The notes under the pieces were generated by a model that worked only from the letters and a program-made list of their open reading frames with translations, was not told where the DNA came from and ran no database searches. DNA of 64,000 nt, from positions 124,001 to 188,000 of the forward strand of contig JAOAIP010000038.1 in assembly GCA_026414605.1 (NCBI GenBank), in the 5' to 3' direction. Made by a program: the position numbers and the translations under genes. Positions 8,009 to 63,437 of the stretch are shown here, piece by piece; positions within the stretch are counted from its first letter, which is position 1, and each line of letters starts with the position of its first letter. Source of the stretch: Bacteroidia bacterium (lineage in GTDB: Bacteria; Bacteroidota; Bacteroidia; B-17B0; Aurantibacillaceae).

Positions 8009-9148
8009 CTATTTCCTTTTAATGAGTAGTTTATCAAAATGATTATTATTATTTATATCTATTGATTGGGTAAAATAAATTCCTTCTGGTAAATTTGTAA
8101 TATCTACCACCTCTGTATTTTCTGAAATTTCAATGCTTTTCACAATCTGTCCAAGTGCATTAATAAGTTTAAAACTTTTAATAGAGTTTAAATATAATTT
8201 ATCATTAGCAGGATTAGGATAAATAAAAGATGTAATAGTTTTAGGCGTAGATTCTATATTAGTAGTTCCTATAATTTGATAACTTACATAGAATGTTTGA
8301 TTATTATAATTGGCAGGAAGTGTTACTTTACAAGTATAAATGCTATTAGGTGAAGGAGACGCAATCATAATAGTGGGCGTGGTGGCTCCTGTATTCCATA
8401 AGTAAGTAGCTCCTTCTTCACTCTTGGCATTTAATACTAAATTAGATGTTGCTGGTACATTTAATACTCCATCACAATCTATATCTATATAACTATAAGC
8501 ATAATGTCCACCATAATAGCAATCAGCATTTACAGCGAATAATGTTACAACTTGTCCAGCATAAGAACTTAAATTTACACCTCTTATTGTCCAAGGTTTG
8601 AAGTATAACCCATATCCACAAGCAGAAGTGTCAAATCCTAAAGTACTAAAGGTTCCTGTTTGATACTTATAAAAAGACCCAGGAATTGTATCTCCATTAG
8701 CATTTAAAATTCCTATTACAAAATAAGGATTATCTGTGGGGCTATGTCCTGGGGCTTGAAGATAAGTTGAATAAGCAAATAAAAAATTTGTATCATTTAC
8801 AGAAGGAACAAAAGAATAAGTAATCATCTCAACACCCATACCTGCTACATTATACTCTCCTATTCGTGCAGAATACTGGCCAAAGCCATTAGCAGGTAAG
8901 GGTTGATACACTGTAGGATTGCTAACAGAATTGCTGCATATAATTGTGCCCGTAGCAACTCCTTCTATACTGAACCTCGGCGAAGAAATGGTTGTACCTG
9001 TAATTGTTATTGAGTAATTGCCTGCATTTGTTCCTGTGGCACCTTGCCATCCCGCAAAACTATTACTTTCAAAGCCATCATTACAGGTTTGAGCAATTGA
9101 ATAACTTAAACCTGATACAAACCCTAAAAATAATACTTGTGTTTTCAT
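8009..9148 (-). CDS. Secreted T9SS type A sorting-domain protein
   Basis: This is a 379-residue exported protein with a Sec signal (about residues 1-20, ending SIAQ) and a C-terminal type IX sorting domain. The last 75 residues carry IYPNPANDKLYL, ALGQIVKS, NLPEGIYF and a basic KLLIKRK end, the usual type A pattern that directs export and surface attachment. The middle is beta-rich, with a two-cysteine TCNDGFE start, aromatic/glycine segments and a PKD/Ig-like stretch near residues 220-290. No catalytic motif was recognised. It may be a surface carbohydrate-binding or adhesion protein. The strand and terminator indicate a single-gene unit. Confidence 0.85.
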   Translation of the reverse strand: MKTQVLFLGFVSGLSYSIAQTCNDGFESNSFAGWQGATGTNAGNYSITITGTTISSPRFSIEGVATGTIICSNSVSNPTVYQPLPANGFGQYSARIGEYNVAGMGVEMITYSFVPSVNDTNFLFAYSTYLQAPGHSPTDNPYFVIGILNANGDTIPGSFYKYQTGTFSTLGFDTSACGYGLYFKPWTIRGVNLSSYAGQVVTLFAVNADCYYGGHYAYSYIDIDCDGVLNVPATSNLVLNAKSEEGATYLWNTGATTPTIMIASPSPNSIYTCKVTLPANYNNQTFYVSYQIIGTTNIESTPKTITSFIYPNPANDKLYLNSIKSFKLINALGQIVKSIEISENTEVVDITNLPEGIYFTQSIDINNNNHFDKLLIKRK

Positions 9149-9261
9149 AATTGTAAATTTTGAAGCAAAGTTAATAAAAATTATTCAATTTACAAAATGT
9201 CGTTTTTTAGGGGATTTTAAAATCTTTACTATAATTAGAACTTAATACTTGATATTTTTAG

Positions 9262-9269
9262 TAGTTTTG
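9262..9269 (+). promoter_or_regulatory. Bacteroidota -7 box upstream of the MazG-like/radC pair
   Basis: TAGTTTTG matches TAnnTTTG and lies 28 bp before the ATG at 9298. A -33 element at standard spacing is not evident. Confidence 0.45.
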
Positions 9270-9297
9270 AAGCCATTACATTTTTAAATTTTAATTT

Positions 9298-9690
9298 ATG
9301 TCATTCAAAAAATATGTTGATAAAGTTGAAGAGTTTCATAATCATTTTAATATAAAAAACAATCACTCTCCACAATTGTTATCTGAGGAGGAATATACAC
9401 TTCGCTATAATTTATTAAAAGAAGAAAATGAGGAATATTTAAATGCTTGTAAAAATAAAGATACAGTTGAAATAGCCGACGCATTAGGCGATATTCTATA
9501 CATTGTAGCGGGAACTTTATTACAACATGGGCTTCAACATAAAATTGACGAGGTTTTTGAAGAGATTCATAGAAGTAATATGTCAAAATTAGGTGAAGAT
9601 GGTAAGCCCATTTATAGAGAAGATGGCAAAGTACTTAAAGGTCCTAATTACTTTAAACCAGATATTAAAAGAATTTTAAATGGACAATAA
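9298..9690 (+). CDS. MazG-like (phosphoribosyl-ATP pyrophosphohydrolase-fold) nucleotide hydrolase
   Basis: This 130-residue all-alpha NTP pyrophosphatase belongs to the MazG/PRA-PH superfamily, which cleaves nucleoside triphosphates or related nucleotides to monophosphate and pyrophosphate. The Mg2+-binding motifs are visible: KEENEEY (Glu42, Glu43, Glu46) and EIADALGD (Glu58, Asp61, Asp65). A C-terminal GKPIYREDGKVLKGPNYFKPD segment resembles PRA-PH-type proteins in Bacteroidota and phages. The stop overlaps the radC start by 11 bp, implying co-translation. A house-cleaning role is likely, but the substrate is not evident; a histidine-pathway role is unlikely without his genes nearby. Confidence 0.85.
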   Translation: MSFKKYVDKVEEFHNHFNIKNNHSPQLLSEEEYTLRYNLLKEENEEYLNACKNKDTVEIADALGDILYIVAGTLLQHGLQHKIDEVFEEIHRSNMSKLGEDGKPIYREDGKVLKGPNYFKPDIKRILNGQ

Positions 9691-24890: not shown

Positions 24891-24917
24891 AGTCAGGAAA
24901 ACAAGTTTTACACATTA

Positions 24918-25045
24918 CTTCAAACTTAACCACAATAATTAGTTGAAAGTTCAAAGTGAAAAGTATACATCATTATATTGAAAAATATTTCCTTTTACTT
25001 CGAACTTGTAACTTTACACTTTTTACTAATGTGTACTTTGTAATG
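24918..25045 (-). repeat. Dispersed intergenic repeat, copy 1 (module A, complete, reverse orientation)
   Basis: Read on the minus strand this is the same unit as at 63229-63385: an end containing ACACATTAGTAAAAAGT, AAGT-GAA arms, the 30-bp core at 24971-25000 (starting AAGTAAAAGGAAATATTTTT), further arms and an ACTAATTATTGTGGTTAAGT end. It fills the space between the OmpA gene and the convergent RluA gene. Confidence 0.85.
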
Positions 25046-25070
25046 AAATATAACCTAAGTAACAAAAAAA

Positions 25071-37840: not shown

Positions 37841-37963
37841 ACAGGAATTCGTCCCGTGCTATGATATTTTTAACCCCTTCAGGACTAATCATAATTTGTC
37901 TATAAGGGATTAATCATCTACCATTTTAAACTTTGAACTTTTAACTTTGAACTTTCAACTAAT
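37841..37963 (+). repeat. Dispersed intergenic repeat, copy 2 (hairpin-cassette tail plus right arm)
   Basis: ACAGGAATTCGTCCCGTGCT, GCTATGATATTT and CCCCTTCAGGACTAATC correspond to the 3' part of the hairpin cassette seen at 40.3 and 56.9 kb, followed by the arm ACTTTGAACTTTCAACTAAT typical of the right end of module A. The core and left arm are missing. The last bases supply the pyrB stop codon (37959-37961, TAG on the minus strand). Confidence 0.75.
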
Positions 37964-38885
37964 GATTTATTCCTGCTAATAGATACATTACTGCCATTCT
38001 TACAGCCACACCGTTTTCTACTTGTTCTAAAATAATAGAGTGCTTACTATCTGCTACATCGCTGGTAATTTCAACCCCTCTGTTAATAGGTCCAGGGTGC
38101 ATTATAATGATTTCTTTTTTTAATTTGCTTAAAACTTCATTGTTTAATTGATACATTAAAGCGTATTCTCTTAATGATGGAAAGTATTTAGTGTCTTGTC
38201 TTTCAAGTTGAATGCGTAACATATTAGCTACATCACACCATTCCAATGCCTTCATTAAATTTGTTTCCACTTCTATACCTAATGCCTGAATATACTTAGG
38301 CATCAATGTAAGAGGACCACACACTTTTACTTTGGCACCCATTTTGTTGAGTAATAATATGTTTGACAAAGCCACACGAGAATGAAGAATATCCCCAACG
38401 ATAGCGACTTTTACATTCTTTAAAGTTCCTAATTTTTCTTTAATAGAAAAAGCATCCAATAGGGCTTGTGTAGGATGTTCGTGCGTACCATCTCCAGCAT
38501 TAATGATGTGTGCATTGACCTTTTTAGCCAAAAACACACACGCACCAGGCGAAGAATGCCGCATCACTATCATATCTACTTTCATTGATAAAATGTTGTT
38601 AGCGGTGTCTATAAGTGTTTCGCCTTTTTTTACAGAAGAAGTAGATGCGGAAAAATTGATAATATCAGCACCCAGTCGCTTTTGGGCTAATTCAAAAGAA
38701 ATTCGGGTACGAGTTGAATTTTCAAAGAAAAGATTGGCTACTGTGATATCTCTTAAAGAAGGGACTTTTTTAATCGGGCGATTAATGACTTCTTTGAACG
38801 ATTTGGCTGTTTCTAAAATAAGATCTATATCTTGAACTGAAAGATCTTTAATGCCTAATAAATGTTTAGTAGATAGCGTTGCCAT
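37959..38885 (-). CDS. pyrB: Aspartate carbamoyltransferase catalytic subunit
   Basis: PyrB joins carbamoyl phosphate and aspartate, the committed step of pyrimidine synthesis. All of the usual 308 residues are present, with the carbamoyl-phosphate loop FFENSTRTRISFE (Ser57-Thr58-Arg59-Thr60), HEHPTQALLDAF, and MHPGPINRGVEI in the C-terminal aspartate domain. The start codon immediately follows the pyrR stop with no intervening base, so the pair is translationally coupled. The stop codon lies inside a dispersed repeat. No pyrI regulatory subunit gene is adjacent. Confidence 0.97.
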   Translation of the reverse strand: MATLSTKHLLGIKDLSVQDIDLILETAKSFKEVINRPIKKVPSLRDITVANLFFENSTRTRISFELAQKRLGADIINFSASTSSVKKGETLIDTANNILSMKVDMIVMRHSSPGACVFLAKKVNAHIINAGDGTHEHPTQALLDAFSIKEKLGTLKNVKVAIVGDILHSRVALSNILLLNKMGAKVKVCGPLTLMPKYIQALGIEVETNLMKALEWCDVANMLRIQLERQDTKYFPSLREYALMYQLNNEVLSKLKKEIIIMHPGPINRGVEITSDVADSKHSIILEQVENGVAVRMAVMYLLAGINH

Positions 38886-40055: not shown

Positions 40056-40466
40056 AGTTTTTGATTTTATTTTTAGATGCGTAAATATAGAGAAAGTTTA
40101 AAACTATATCAAATAATCGTTACTTTTTAGCTTATATTTTACCACAAAGAACACGTTAGTACAAAGTGAAAAGTGGAAAGTTTGAAAGTAAAAGGAAATA
40201 TTTTTCAATATAATGATATAGCGTTTTAATACTTTTAACTTTTAACTTTCTACTTTATAGGTGCCGCCCTTTCAGGGATTGAATGTTGGGGGTATTTTCG
40301 CCCACAGGGCTTTGTCCTGCGCTATGATATTTCGCCCCTTCGGGGCTACGGATATTGTGTTACTATTAGGACTAATCGTTAATCACAAATAATTGACAAT
40401 TTTTTTATATTCTTAGTGATTTAGTTTGAAATCACTATCCTAATAATTATAGTAACTCTATTGTTT
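40056..40466. repeat. Intergenic spacer with repeat copy 3 (module A left part plus hairpin cassette)
   Basis: No gene is seen. From 40140 the left end of module A is present (ACCACAAAGAACACGTTAGT, AAGTGAAAAGTGGAAAGT), then the 30-bp core at 40186-40215 and TTTAACTTTCTACTT arms to about 40257. The hairpin cassette follows: CCCTTTCAGGG (40267-40277), CAGGGCTTTGTCCTG (40305-40319) and GCCCCTTCGGGGC (40334-40346), then GGACTAATC. The expected right arm of module A is not recognisable. The segment is on the plus strand in the same orientation as the copy at 56771. Confidence 0.85.
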
Positions 40467-56003: not shown

Positions 56004-56104
56004 TCAAAAGTTGAAAGTAATTATCCTTAAAAAATTTAAAGCATCCAATATTTATCAAAAACATTATTCTTTATCACTTTCAACTTTTTACTTTCTACTA
56101 ATAA
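56004..56104. repeat. Dispersed intergenic repeat, copy 4 (arms only)
   Basis: AAAAGTTGAAAGTAA at 56006-56020 and CACTTTCAACTTTTTACTTTCTACTAATA near 56075-56103 are facing arms of module A. The 30-bp core between them is replaced by unrelated AT-rich sequence. It is a degraded or truncated copy. Confidence 0.6.
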
Positions 56105-56146
56105 AAGGGGGTGAGTTAATACTCCCTAATTTAAAAAAATAAGATG

Positions 56147-56698: not shown

Positions 56699-56770
56699 TC
56701 AAAATTTTTGCCCAAAGATACAGCAAATAAAAACAAATAAAAGCAGGAAAAAATAAAGTTATACTACTCA

Positions 56771-57160
56771 TTTTTTATTTTACTACAGAGAACACATTAG
56801 TAAAAAGTGAAAAGTGGAAAGTTATAATTTTGAAGTAAAAGGAAATATTCTTCAATATAATGATATAGCGTTTTAATACTTTCTACTTTTAAATTTGAAC
56901 TTTCTACTTTCTTCCTTATAGATGTCGCCCTTTCAGGGCTTAAAATGGTATGGATTTATTTTCACAGGGCTTTGTCCTGTGCTATTGTATTTTGCCCCTT
57001 CGGGGCTACCCATATTTTATCCCTACAGGACAATGAATATTTGAGATGATCTAAGTGCAACTAATATTCAGTTCCTATGGGACTTTTCACTTTCAACTTT
57101 CAACTAATTATTTTCTTCGTGCCCTTTGTGGTTAAGTTCAAATTGCTGAGTAGGAAAAAA
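56771..57160 (+). repeat. Dispersed intergenic repeat, copy 5 (full composite: module A with hairpin cassette inside)
   Basis: The spacer 56699-57172 (474 bp) holds the most complete composite. Left end with GAGAACACATTAGT and AAGTGAAAAGTGGAAAGT arms; core at 56833-56862 (one base differs from the other copies); TTCTACTTTTAAATTTGAAC arms. The cassette follows: GCCCTTTCAGGGC (56927-56939), ACAGGGCTTTGTCCTGT (56964-56980), GCCCCTTCGGGGC (56994-57006), CCTACAGG and GTTCCTATGGGAC (57071-57083). The right arm CTTTCAACTTTCAACTAATT and a right end CCCTTTGTGGTTAAGTTC close it. No gene is seen in the spacer. Confidence 0.88.
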
Positions 57161-57172
57161 CAAATAAAATTT

Positions 57173-58729
57173 TTACTTCTCCCCTACTGCTGGCAATTGA
57201 TGTTCTACATTTATTCCCTTTACAGGCGGTGGATTCAAAGGGAAACGAAGGTCTTGATATTTTGAAATTATAACACCATTTTCAACTTCATCTTTTCTAA
57301 CAGCCATTATTAACCAAGAAAATTCTGCATTGCTTTGTCCATTATTTAATTCTACTACTTCAAATCCTTTATTCGTAATGTTTTTGACATATACACCATT
57401 GCACTCTCCTAAGGGTTGCACAAAAACATTTGCAGGATGTTTTTCATCAATAATAATATTGTCAGCAAAAATCTCATCTAATTCAATATATGCTTTTCCA
57501 TTTACTAATTTACCCCTTCCCATATCTTGAAAAATCACTTGTGGGGCTTCGGGTGCAAACATTATTCTTTCTTGCTTATTTTTATCTTTAATTAAAGTTG
57601 ACACTGAACCATTTCCCATCACTTTATATTCTGTTCCTCCCACAAAACCGCCAAGCATAGCAGTACGAATATTGCCAAGACCATCCCGCCACATAGCATA
57701 ATAAGCCCTTCTGTCACCAGATGTGTTATTAGCATAACTAAATGTTCCTATTTCTGTGCCTGTAAAATATCCTCCTGCACCTACAATTGGGATATTTTGT
57801 GCTGAAGTACCATTACCCACACCCACTACACCAATACTTTTAGCCCCATGAGTTTCTGCCCATATAGCATAACTTTGCAATGTAGCACTATTGTTATTAG
57901 ATACTCCCCATATAGTAATGGACTGTGGGGCATCGTTTTGCCCATAAATGGCCGTACCAGGAGAATTTGTATTAGTGGGAACACTTGTGGATGAATTATA
58001 TCCTCTTACAGCATGCGCGTCATTAGAATATACTCTACCATCTACACCAAACACAACACCCGAAGTGGATTGATTTTCACCATAAACGCCTTTTGAACCA
58101 TTAGAACTGGAATTTACCTTTCCCCATACGCCATAAGTAACCCCCGTGGCATTGACAAACGCATAAACACCATTTCCTGCATTCGCCGTACTTTCTACAT
58201 AAATGCCATTCCCCACAGTGGCAGTACGAACATCCAATTTTCCATTTGGTGTATTTGTGCCAATACCTACTCTCCATCCTGCTGTAAATCGGGCTATTTC
58301 CGTGTTATTGGTTTTAATCACCAAATCGTTATTATCGGTAGTACCTAAAAAATTAGTTGCTGGCGATGTACCAGCATTACCCGTTGTAAGCCATGCAAAA
58401 GAACTTCCGCTTGATGAACCTGTTGAATATAAAAGACATCTCCATTTGCTGGACAAACTATCCCAATAATAATATCCTGCCCCGCATCCTCCTGTAATTG
58501 AAGCATTGGTATTATACACCAGGAGAGAATTAGCCGCACCAGGTATTGTAGTATTATCGGTGATATTTGTTAGATTTACTCTTGGAATCAAAACACCTTT
58601 ATTGGAATAATTTACATCCAAACCCGCCGAAGGATGGGGCAATCCACCAGTTGCATTAATTCCCACATTTTGAGCACTTATTAAAGAAAAAACACACAAA
58701 ATACTTGCAGAAATAATAATCCGTTTCAT
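57173..58729 (-). CDS. Exported surface protein with phage-tail-fibre-like repeats
   Basis: This 518-residue protein has a Sec signal (about 1-19, ending ISAQ) and the NVGINATGGLPHPSAGLDV and GVLIPRVNLTN opening shared by many Bacteroidota surface proteins. A VGIGTNTPNGKLDV segment (about residue 155) and Gly/Asn/Val-rich short repeats (GIYVESTANAGNGVYAFVNATG, GVWGKVNSSSNGSKGVYGE) to about residue 350 resemble tail-fibre or trimeric adhesin stalks. The C-terminal 150 residues form a distinct globular region (PEAPQVIFQDMGRGKLVNGKAYIELD). No type IX sorting domain is evident. It is probably an outer-surface structural or adhesion protein; function unknown. Confidence 0.75.
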   Translation of the reverse strand: MKRIIISASILCVFSLISAQNVGINATGGLPHPSAGLDVNYSNKGVLIPRVNLTNITDNTTIPGAANSLLVYNTNASITGGCGAGYYYWDSLSSKWRCLLYSTGSSSGSSFAWLTTGNAGTSPATNFLGTTDNNDLVIKTNNTEIARFTAGWRVGIGTNTPNGKLDVRTATVGNGIYVESTANAGNGVYAFVNATGVTYGVWGKVNSSSNGSKGVYGENQSTSGVVFGVDGRVYSNDAHAVRGYNSSTSVPTNTNSPGTAIYGQNDAPQSITIWGVSNNNSATLQSYAIWAETHGAKSIGVVGVGNGTSAQNIPIVGAGGYFTGTEIGTFSYANNTSGDRRAYYAMWRDGLGNIRTAMLGGFVGGTEYKVMGNGSVSTLIKDKNKQERIMFAPEAPQVIFQDMGRGKLVNGKAYIELDEIFADNIIIDEKHPANVFVQPLGECNGVYVKNITNKGFEVVELNNGQSNAEFSWLIMAVRKDEVENGVIISKYQDLRFPLNPPPVKGINVEHQLPAVGEK

Positions 58730-63183: not shown

Positions 63184-63228
63184 AATTTTAATTCATTCAT
63201 GAACTTTGATTAATGTTCAAGTTATATT

Positions 63229-63385
63229 TATCACCAAGAACACATTAGTAAAAAGTTGAAAGTTGAAAGTAAAAAGTTGAAAGTAAAAGGAAATATTTTT
63301 CAATATAATGATGTATACTTTTTACTTTGAACTTTCCACTAATTATTGCGGTTAAGTTTGAAATGTTGAGTAGTAAGAATAAATA
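63229..63385 (+). repeat. Dispersed intergenic repeat, copy 6 (module A, complete)
   Basis: The unit begins ACCAAGAACACATTAGT, followed by three AAAGTTGAAAGT-type arms, the 30-bp core at 63281-63310, an arm ACTTTTTACTTTGAACTTTC, and the right end ACTAATTATTGCGGTTAAGT. It shares nearly the whole length with copy 1 (24918-25045), in the opposite orientation. It lies between the HU/SPOR gene and rnpB. There is no gene in 63184-63437. Confidence 0.88.
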
Positions 63386-63437
63386 AAAAAATCAATCGCA
63401 AATAATCTATATCAAAGTATCCCAATTGTCAAAAAAA

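Follow-up and report, generated by a model that had tools for sequence, protein, structure and literature searches.

A hairpin cassette matching Acido-Lenti-1 lies inside a dispersed inverted repeat of a Bacteroidia genome

We analysed a stretch of 64,000 nucleotides (the window; C58:124001-188000) in a genome of 2.48 Mb, the assembly of which comprises 76 contigs and is 96% complete. An intergenic element of about 400 bases, in which two repeat families are fused, occupies positions 56758-57157 of the plus strand. Its ends were set against other copies (GTTACTRYTCAG... and ...TTTGAAGTGCTGAGTAGTAAC); the preliminary description had located it properly, and its limits of 56771-57160 gave way to these slightly wider ones. 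The outer family, module A, is near-palindromic and consists of ends, ACTTTNN heptad arms and a 30-bp core, and a hairpin cassette is lodged in its right arm. Read from the left, the composite contains the outer left end of module A (GTTATACTACTCA...TTTTACTACAGAGAACACATTAGT, 56758-56801), delimited by comparison of copies; the left heptad arm (AAAAAGTGAAAAGTGGAAAGT..., 56802-56835), recognized by the heptad motif; the core (AAAGGAAATATTCTTCAATATAATGATATAGCG, 56836-56870), here in a GATATA variant and placed by the core copies of the same genome; a second heptad tract (...ACTTTCTACTTT then CTTCCTTATAGRTGTCGCCC, 56877-56912), which joins the cassette by a joint that recurs, with small variation, in 11 copies; the cassette itself (56911-57084), defined by sequence, copies and fold; the right heptad arm (ACTTTTCACTTTCAACTTTCAACTAATTA, 57082-57112), recognized by the arm motif; and the outer right end of module A (CTTCGTGCCCTTTGTGGTTAAGTTCAAATTGCTGAGTAG, 57113-57157), found by end motif search. 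All of these parts lie on the plus strand.

The cassette carries five hairpins between the core and the right arm, three of them GC-rich and two weaker, exactly where they had first been noticed. Hairpin 1 (GCCCTTTCAGGGC) lies at 56927-56939, hairpin 2 (CACAGGGCTTTGTCCTGTG) at 56963-56981 and hairpin 3 (GCCCCTTCGGGGC) at 56994-57006, followed by the weaker ones at 57019-57031 and 57070-57084. With at most 2 mismatches, GCCCCTTCGGGGC occurred 3 times in the window versus 0.08 expected from shuffled sequence, and the module A arm motif 20 times versus 2.1 expected. The predicted RNA fold of the cassette had a z of -2.3, and that of a module A without cassette (63206-63390) a z of -2.7.

Comparison of copies identified four further representatives in the window. 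A second composite on the plus strand (40124-40454) retains the left part, core and cassette and has no right heptad arm, as had been proposed; what we add is that a decayed outer right end seems to be kept, apparently at about 40425-40454 (GTTTGAAATCACTATCC..TATAGTAAC). The claim that another copy consists of a cassette tail and a right arm was borne out at 37841-37968 (plus strand), where the tail is decayed, the heptad arm is present and no left part is found. Module A without cassette, which had likewise been anticipated, is represented at 24.9 kb (24909-25061, minus strand) and at 63.2 kb (63205-63377, plus strand), the latter also from its fold. Near 56.0 kb (56005-56105) the window contains a distinct repeat, module B (CCTTAAAAAATTTAAAGCA...; L041, L042), which has heptad arms and a GC-rich repeat CCGCATCCCTCACGC in front and shares with module A the heptads alone.

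Genome-wide, the module A core was recovered in 26 copies at no more than 3 mismatches, versus none for a reversed-pattern control, and the end motif gave 42 matches (2 mismatches allowed) versus 1 for its control. Like the terminal inverted repeats of MITEs, the ends are inverted, imperfectly, with GTTACTRYTCAG on both and the heptad arms inverted as well. Target-site duplication, a further hallmark of MITEs, was present in none of the nine copies with both ends recognised, and no transposase was seen between paired module A-type ends in the loci examined, by a search that was not exhaustive. Module A matched no RNA family at the E-value used. Its core was absent from 40 relatives, where the matches were heptads, RF01687-like hairpins or short end pieces; module A was not found in the same-genus genomes searched; and the exact core occurred nowhere in a set of 85,000 genomes, from which this genome's own records had perhaps been left out. 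Three same-genus genomes (G001-G003) have an orthologue of the gene at 57173-58729 with no element on its 3′ side. These loci do not count as clean empty sites, since the orthologue has a different neighbour on its other side. All cassettes and A cores examined fall between ORFs, and convergent gene pairs are not favoured.

The heptads themselves, searched as (ACTTTNN)3ACT, occur 362 times in this genome, compared with once for the reversed pattern and 0-20 times in 59 relatives. A 23S-IVP gene (four-helix-bundle, TIGR02436; L042:1417-1893, C48, around 9017-9325) is bordered by a heptad array on each side and lies beside module B, and two fragments of the TIGR02436 family (L043, L044), as well as a 23S-IVP gene in a distant relative (L138), also adjoin heptads. 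Because they join module A, module B, the cassette and the 23S-IVP gene, the heptads are the common joint. The genome also contains a second hairpin block, with GTTCCGTAGGAAC, CAATGGACTTTAGTCCATTG and others, in an element with ends TTTTTTGAGRTGYTGAATAG similar to the right end of module A (L078 C31:15699, L079 C4:59488, L080 C35:329, L081 C43:10489, L084 C58:113796); hairpin blocks therefore lie inside inverted-end elements at least twice in this genome.

We then compared 32 module A copies across the genome. The modular composite is real: 19 copies are without cassette and 13 carry it whole or in part. Among these 13, 11 are joined in essentially the same way, by heptads that lead into CTTCCTTATAGRTGTCGCCC with minor variants; one of the 11, L029, ends at a contig edge just inside the cassette. 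The other two (L022, L037) have a second junction, AACTCAWGTGGGCTTYRCCC. Hybrid copies, which had been suspected, were found as well: in L009 a variant core is combined with the usual junction, the copies L022 and L037 carry the second junction, and L003 and L037, 4 kb apart on contig C46, agree in an unusual left end while their cores and junctions differ, a pattern that points to conversion or recombination between copies. The GATATA core variant bears a cassette in 9 of 12 copies, versus 4 of 20 for other cores (p = 0.0035), which suggests that the two parts were joined few times and that the composite spread afterwards. In a tree of the left parts, which is poorly resolved, cassette-bearing copies did not cluster (9 cassette changes versus 10.4 in shuffles); this fits exchange through the arms, but low resolution alone would give the same result.

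Searched from the other side with the Rfam model, the cassette is present in 25 copies, 12 of which are A-linked, with an A core no more than 250 bp away, whereas 0.16 would be expected by chance. The remaining 13 occur alone or beside other modules, namely module B (L066) or module C (L065, L069, L073), and the family to which the cassette belongs is widespread outside module A; in L068 a variant A and module C are both present. The proposal that the cassette is gained or lost as a block is therefore partly supported: 13 of 32 A copies carry it, but block-wise gain and loss in module A does not account for the 13 of 25 cassettes without A. From the two fractions, 12 of 25 A-linked and 13 of 25 not, we conclude that the cassette is an independent element, which recurs in fusion with other repeats, module A being the most frequent partner. 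L065 and L067 had been flagged as module A by a loose test, and no A core was found in them by eye or by core-distance count. Module C (AAACTCATCCCC...TTAGAGAGGGGG...GGGGGTGAGTTAA; L040, L065, L068, L069, L073) is a long palindromic repeat, fused in several copies to the cassette immediately past hairpin 3. Two contigs begin inside cassette copies (L029, C31:1-144; L033, C21:1-120), and repeat-flanked genes may therefore be missing from the assembly.

These junctions could be read as the work of recombination alone, the composites having arisen and spread via homologous recombination, gene conversion or replication slippage between heptad tracts, with no transposase involved for either part. 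Such an origin would agree with the heptads being the joint common to both modules, the cassette and the 23S-IVP gene, as described above, with L003 and L037 sharing a left end and differing internally, and with the missing target-site duplications (0 of 9). However, the copies stand in unrelated intergenic regions and their flanks differ, so whole units were inserted, and the same-genus orthologue of the gene at 57173-58729 is without element at its 3′ side. We consider it doubtful that recombination by itself produced the composites.

Acido-Lenti-1 has been noted near group II introns. Hairpins 2 and 3 of the cassette match this family (RF01687) over the full model, in the window at 56963-57007 of the plus strand (C58:180963-181007; L001:1693-1737) with 39.8 bits, against a gathering score of 37, and elsewhere in the genome with up to 47 bits. 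Fifteen copies in this genome reach the gathering score, and there are about 25 relatives. Across 60 genomes, this one and 59 relatives, the family is patchy, being present in 7 that include this one, with up to 35 copies. In most full copies hairpin 3 shows GTAG ahead of CCCC on the minus strand, and GTAG is absent at hairpins 1 and 2; some relatives in G025 and G057 read CGTCCC.

In related bacteria these hairpins adjoin transposase genes. In G013, a Y1_Tnp gene is flanked on both sides by GCCCTTTCAGGGC and GCCCCTTCGGGGC hairpins, and RF01687 is matched at a distance of about 120-215 bp from it; the encoded protein is of IS200 type and carries the signature that PMC6006769 gives for subclass 1.2. 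A search with this protein provided the 20 next-best loci (L278-L297), which were scanned with Rfam. RF01687 was found beside the Y1 gene in 11 of the 20 and on both sides in five (L284, L285, L286, L293, L297), and 19 of 31 RF01687 matches lay within 200 bp of a Y1 gene, versus 4.3 under uniform placement. At L290 the order of hairpins resembles that of the window cassette, though Rfam does not list it. When a comparison clade of subclass 1.2 was scanned with an equal threshold, none of its 12 loci had RF01687, and at the gathering score none of 80 did; this clade has GC hairpins of its own, often paired about 50 bp apart. At 80 named loci of this subclass 1.2 clade, GC hairpins reached 13/kb within 100 bp of the gene versus about 1/kb beyond 1 kb, and 50 of 77 loci had them on both sides. 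As regards the proteins, DH[IV]H, WQ and Y...Q..HH, which characterize subclass 1.2, were found, the last of them in most Y1 loci examined, and the D, H, H, W, Y, Q, H and H columns were invariant among 19 aligned sequences. The IS200 model NF033573 scored 66-70 bits versus a cut-off of 55, and the RAYT model NF047646 (REP_Tyr_transpos) 22-29 bits for three associated proteins, below its 80-bit cut-off. The connection of Acido-Lenti-1 with subclass 1.2, the most useful new point of this work, is one of association and is strong in a single clade.

No Y1_Tnp gene was detected in the genome that contains the window (G000; 96% complete, 76 contigs); either the cassettes are orphaned, as they seem to be, or the assembly lacks the gene. 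In G025 (L182), which has 35 RF01687 copies, the Y1 gene is flanked by another hairpin type (ACCCCGAAGGGGT); perhaps this is another case of hairpins without a matching transposase.

The RF01687 match also invites the reading that the cassette works as a structured RNA, or as a terminator or mRNA stabiliser, with its repeats spreading because of a benefit at gene ends. In favour of this, Rfam curates RF01687 as an sRNA, both hairpin 2 and the last hairpin resemble terminators by score, and the predicted cassette fold is stable (z = -2.3). Nevertheless, the genes flanking cassettes are arranged in 11 tandem, 5 convergent and 3 divergent pairs, close to random placement; cassette copies have been cut short and fused anew to other repeats; and their relatives are associated with Y1 transposase genes. 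We regard this reading as improbable, whereas a secondary use as terminator, hairpin 2 included, is possible. Because such hairpins flank IS200-like transposase genes in related bacteria, stranded mobile DNA is more likely than an RNA gene. Coincidental adjacency of a cassette mostly found alone, which the preliminary description had offered as its own possible refutation, is next to inconceivable: although 13 of the 25 cassettes lack module A, the 12 of 25 within 250 bp of an A core compare with 0.16 expected, and 11 share essentially one junction.

Y1 transposases of IS200/IS605 and RAYT type are established to act on single-stranded DNA hairpins (PMC6006769). Taking the above results together, the composite is probably non-autonomous, its REP-like, Y1-associated Acido-Lenti-1 hairpins having been joined into MITE-like module A and later orphaned. 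The cassette would be a hairpin array once copied or moved as single-stranded DNA by an IS200-like Y1 (HUH) transposase, and a Y1-handled array is its most likely nature because such hairpins flank one Y1 clade in related Bacteroidota. A few joining events at heptad tracts would have brought it into module A, and the resulting composite would then have spread as one unit; recombination between heptad tracts would have generated further hybrids, and loss of the cognate transposase would have left the cassettes orphaned. The make-up of the element, its junctions, the copies across the genome, the RF01687 match, the association with Y1 genes in relatives and the absence of Y1_Tnp here are direct observations, whereas we infer that a Y1 enzyme moved the cassette, that the composite spread as one piece and that the heptads mediated exchange. 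Several observations count against this explanation, namely that the genome itself has no Y1_Tnp, that the hairpins in G025 do not match, that there is no target-site duplication, that the REP tag GTAG occurs at hairpin 3 only and on the minus strand, and that the left-part tree is unclustered. For Acido-Lenti-1 as a whole, we tentatively propose that it may be mobile DNA, the cognate hairpin pair of a subclass 1.2 clade in Bacteroidota, captured by unrelated MITE-like repeats, spreading along with them and outliving its own transposase.

If this is true, a family filed in Rfam for more than 15 years as an sRNA of unknown function would have to be re-read as a DNA element, and the subclass 1.2 Y1 proteins would gain a candidate substrate. 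It would also show how hairpins of REP type, when without a transposase of their own, could be carried along by another repeat as it spreads. Acido-Lenti-1 'sRNAs' have been suggested as regulators of Tannerella proteases (PMC13298647), and caution would be due with automatic annotation of this kind, the Tannerella case included.

Beyond the papers cited here, we found no further literature on nested MITEs or subclass 1.2 REPs in sources that largely leave subscription journals uncovered. Compared with the Acido-Lenti-1 RNA (RF01687; Weinberg et al. 2010, PMC2864571), whose table lists Acidobacteria and Lentisphaerae only, the family is here a dispersed intergenic repeat fused to other repeats, and an sRNA does not predict hairpins that flank IS200-like genes as in the related genomes. 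With REP/BIME sequences and their RAYTs (PMC3733652, PMC6006769, PMC2817692) the cassette shares short, multicopy, dispersed GC hairpins between genes, doublets, arrays and, in relatives, an adjacent Y1 HUH gene; the same hairpins flank such a gene in G013 and in loci among L278-L297, not in this genome, and the proteins are IS200-type of subclass 1.2 rather than class 2 RAYTs, with inconsistent tag motifs. The Y1 proteins share with TnpA-Y1 subclass 1.2 the DH[IV]H, WQ, Y...Q..HH signature, occurrence in Bacteroidota and low copy number; the 2018 survey gives this subclass as 'REP: no' and generally without typical terminal structures (PMC6006769), whereas we find GC hairpins within 180 bp of the gene in 75 of 77 loci. 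Module A resembles MITEs with terminal inverted repeats in being about 175-200 bp long, near-palindromic, intergenic, multicopy and without ORF, and differs from them in having no target-site duplication and no autonomous partner that we could find. By description, the composite as a whole also resembles TIRtrons (PMC3733652), which are known from Pseudomonas around RAYT genes and in which degenerate REP units are linked to other stem-loops; in both, hairpins derived from REPs have been combined with inverted repeats of unrelated origin and multiplied.
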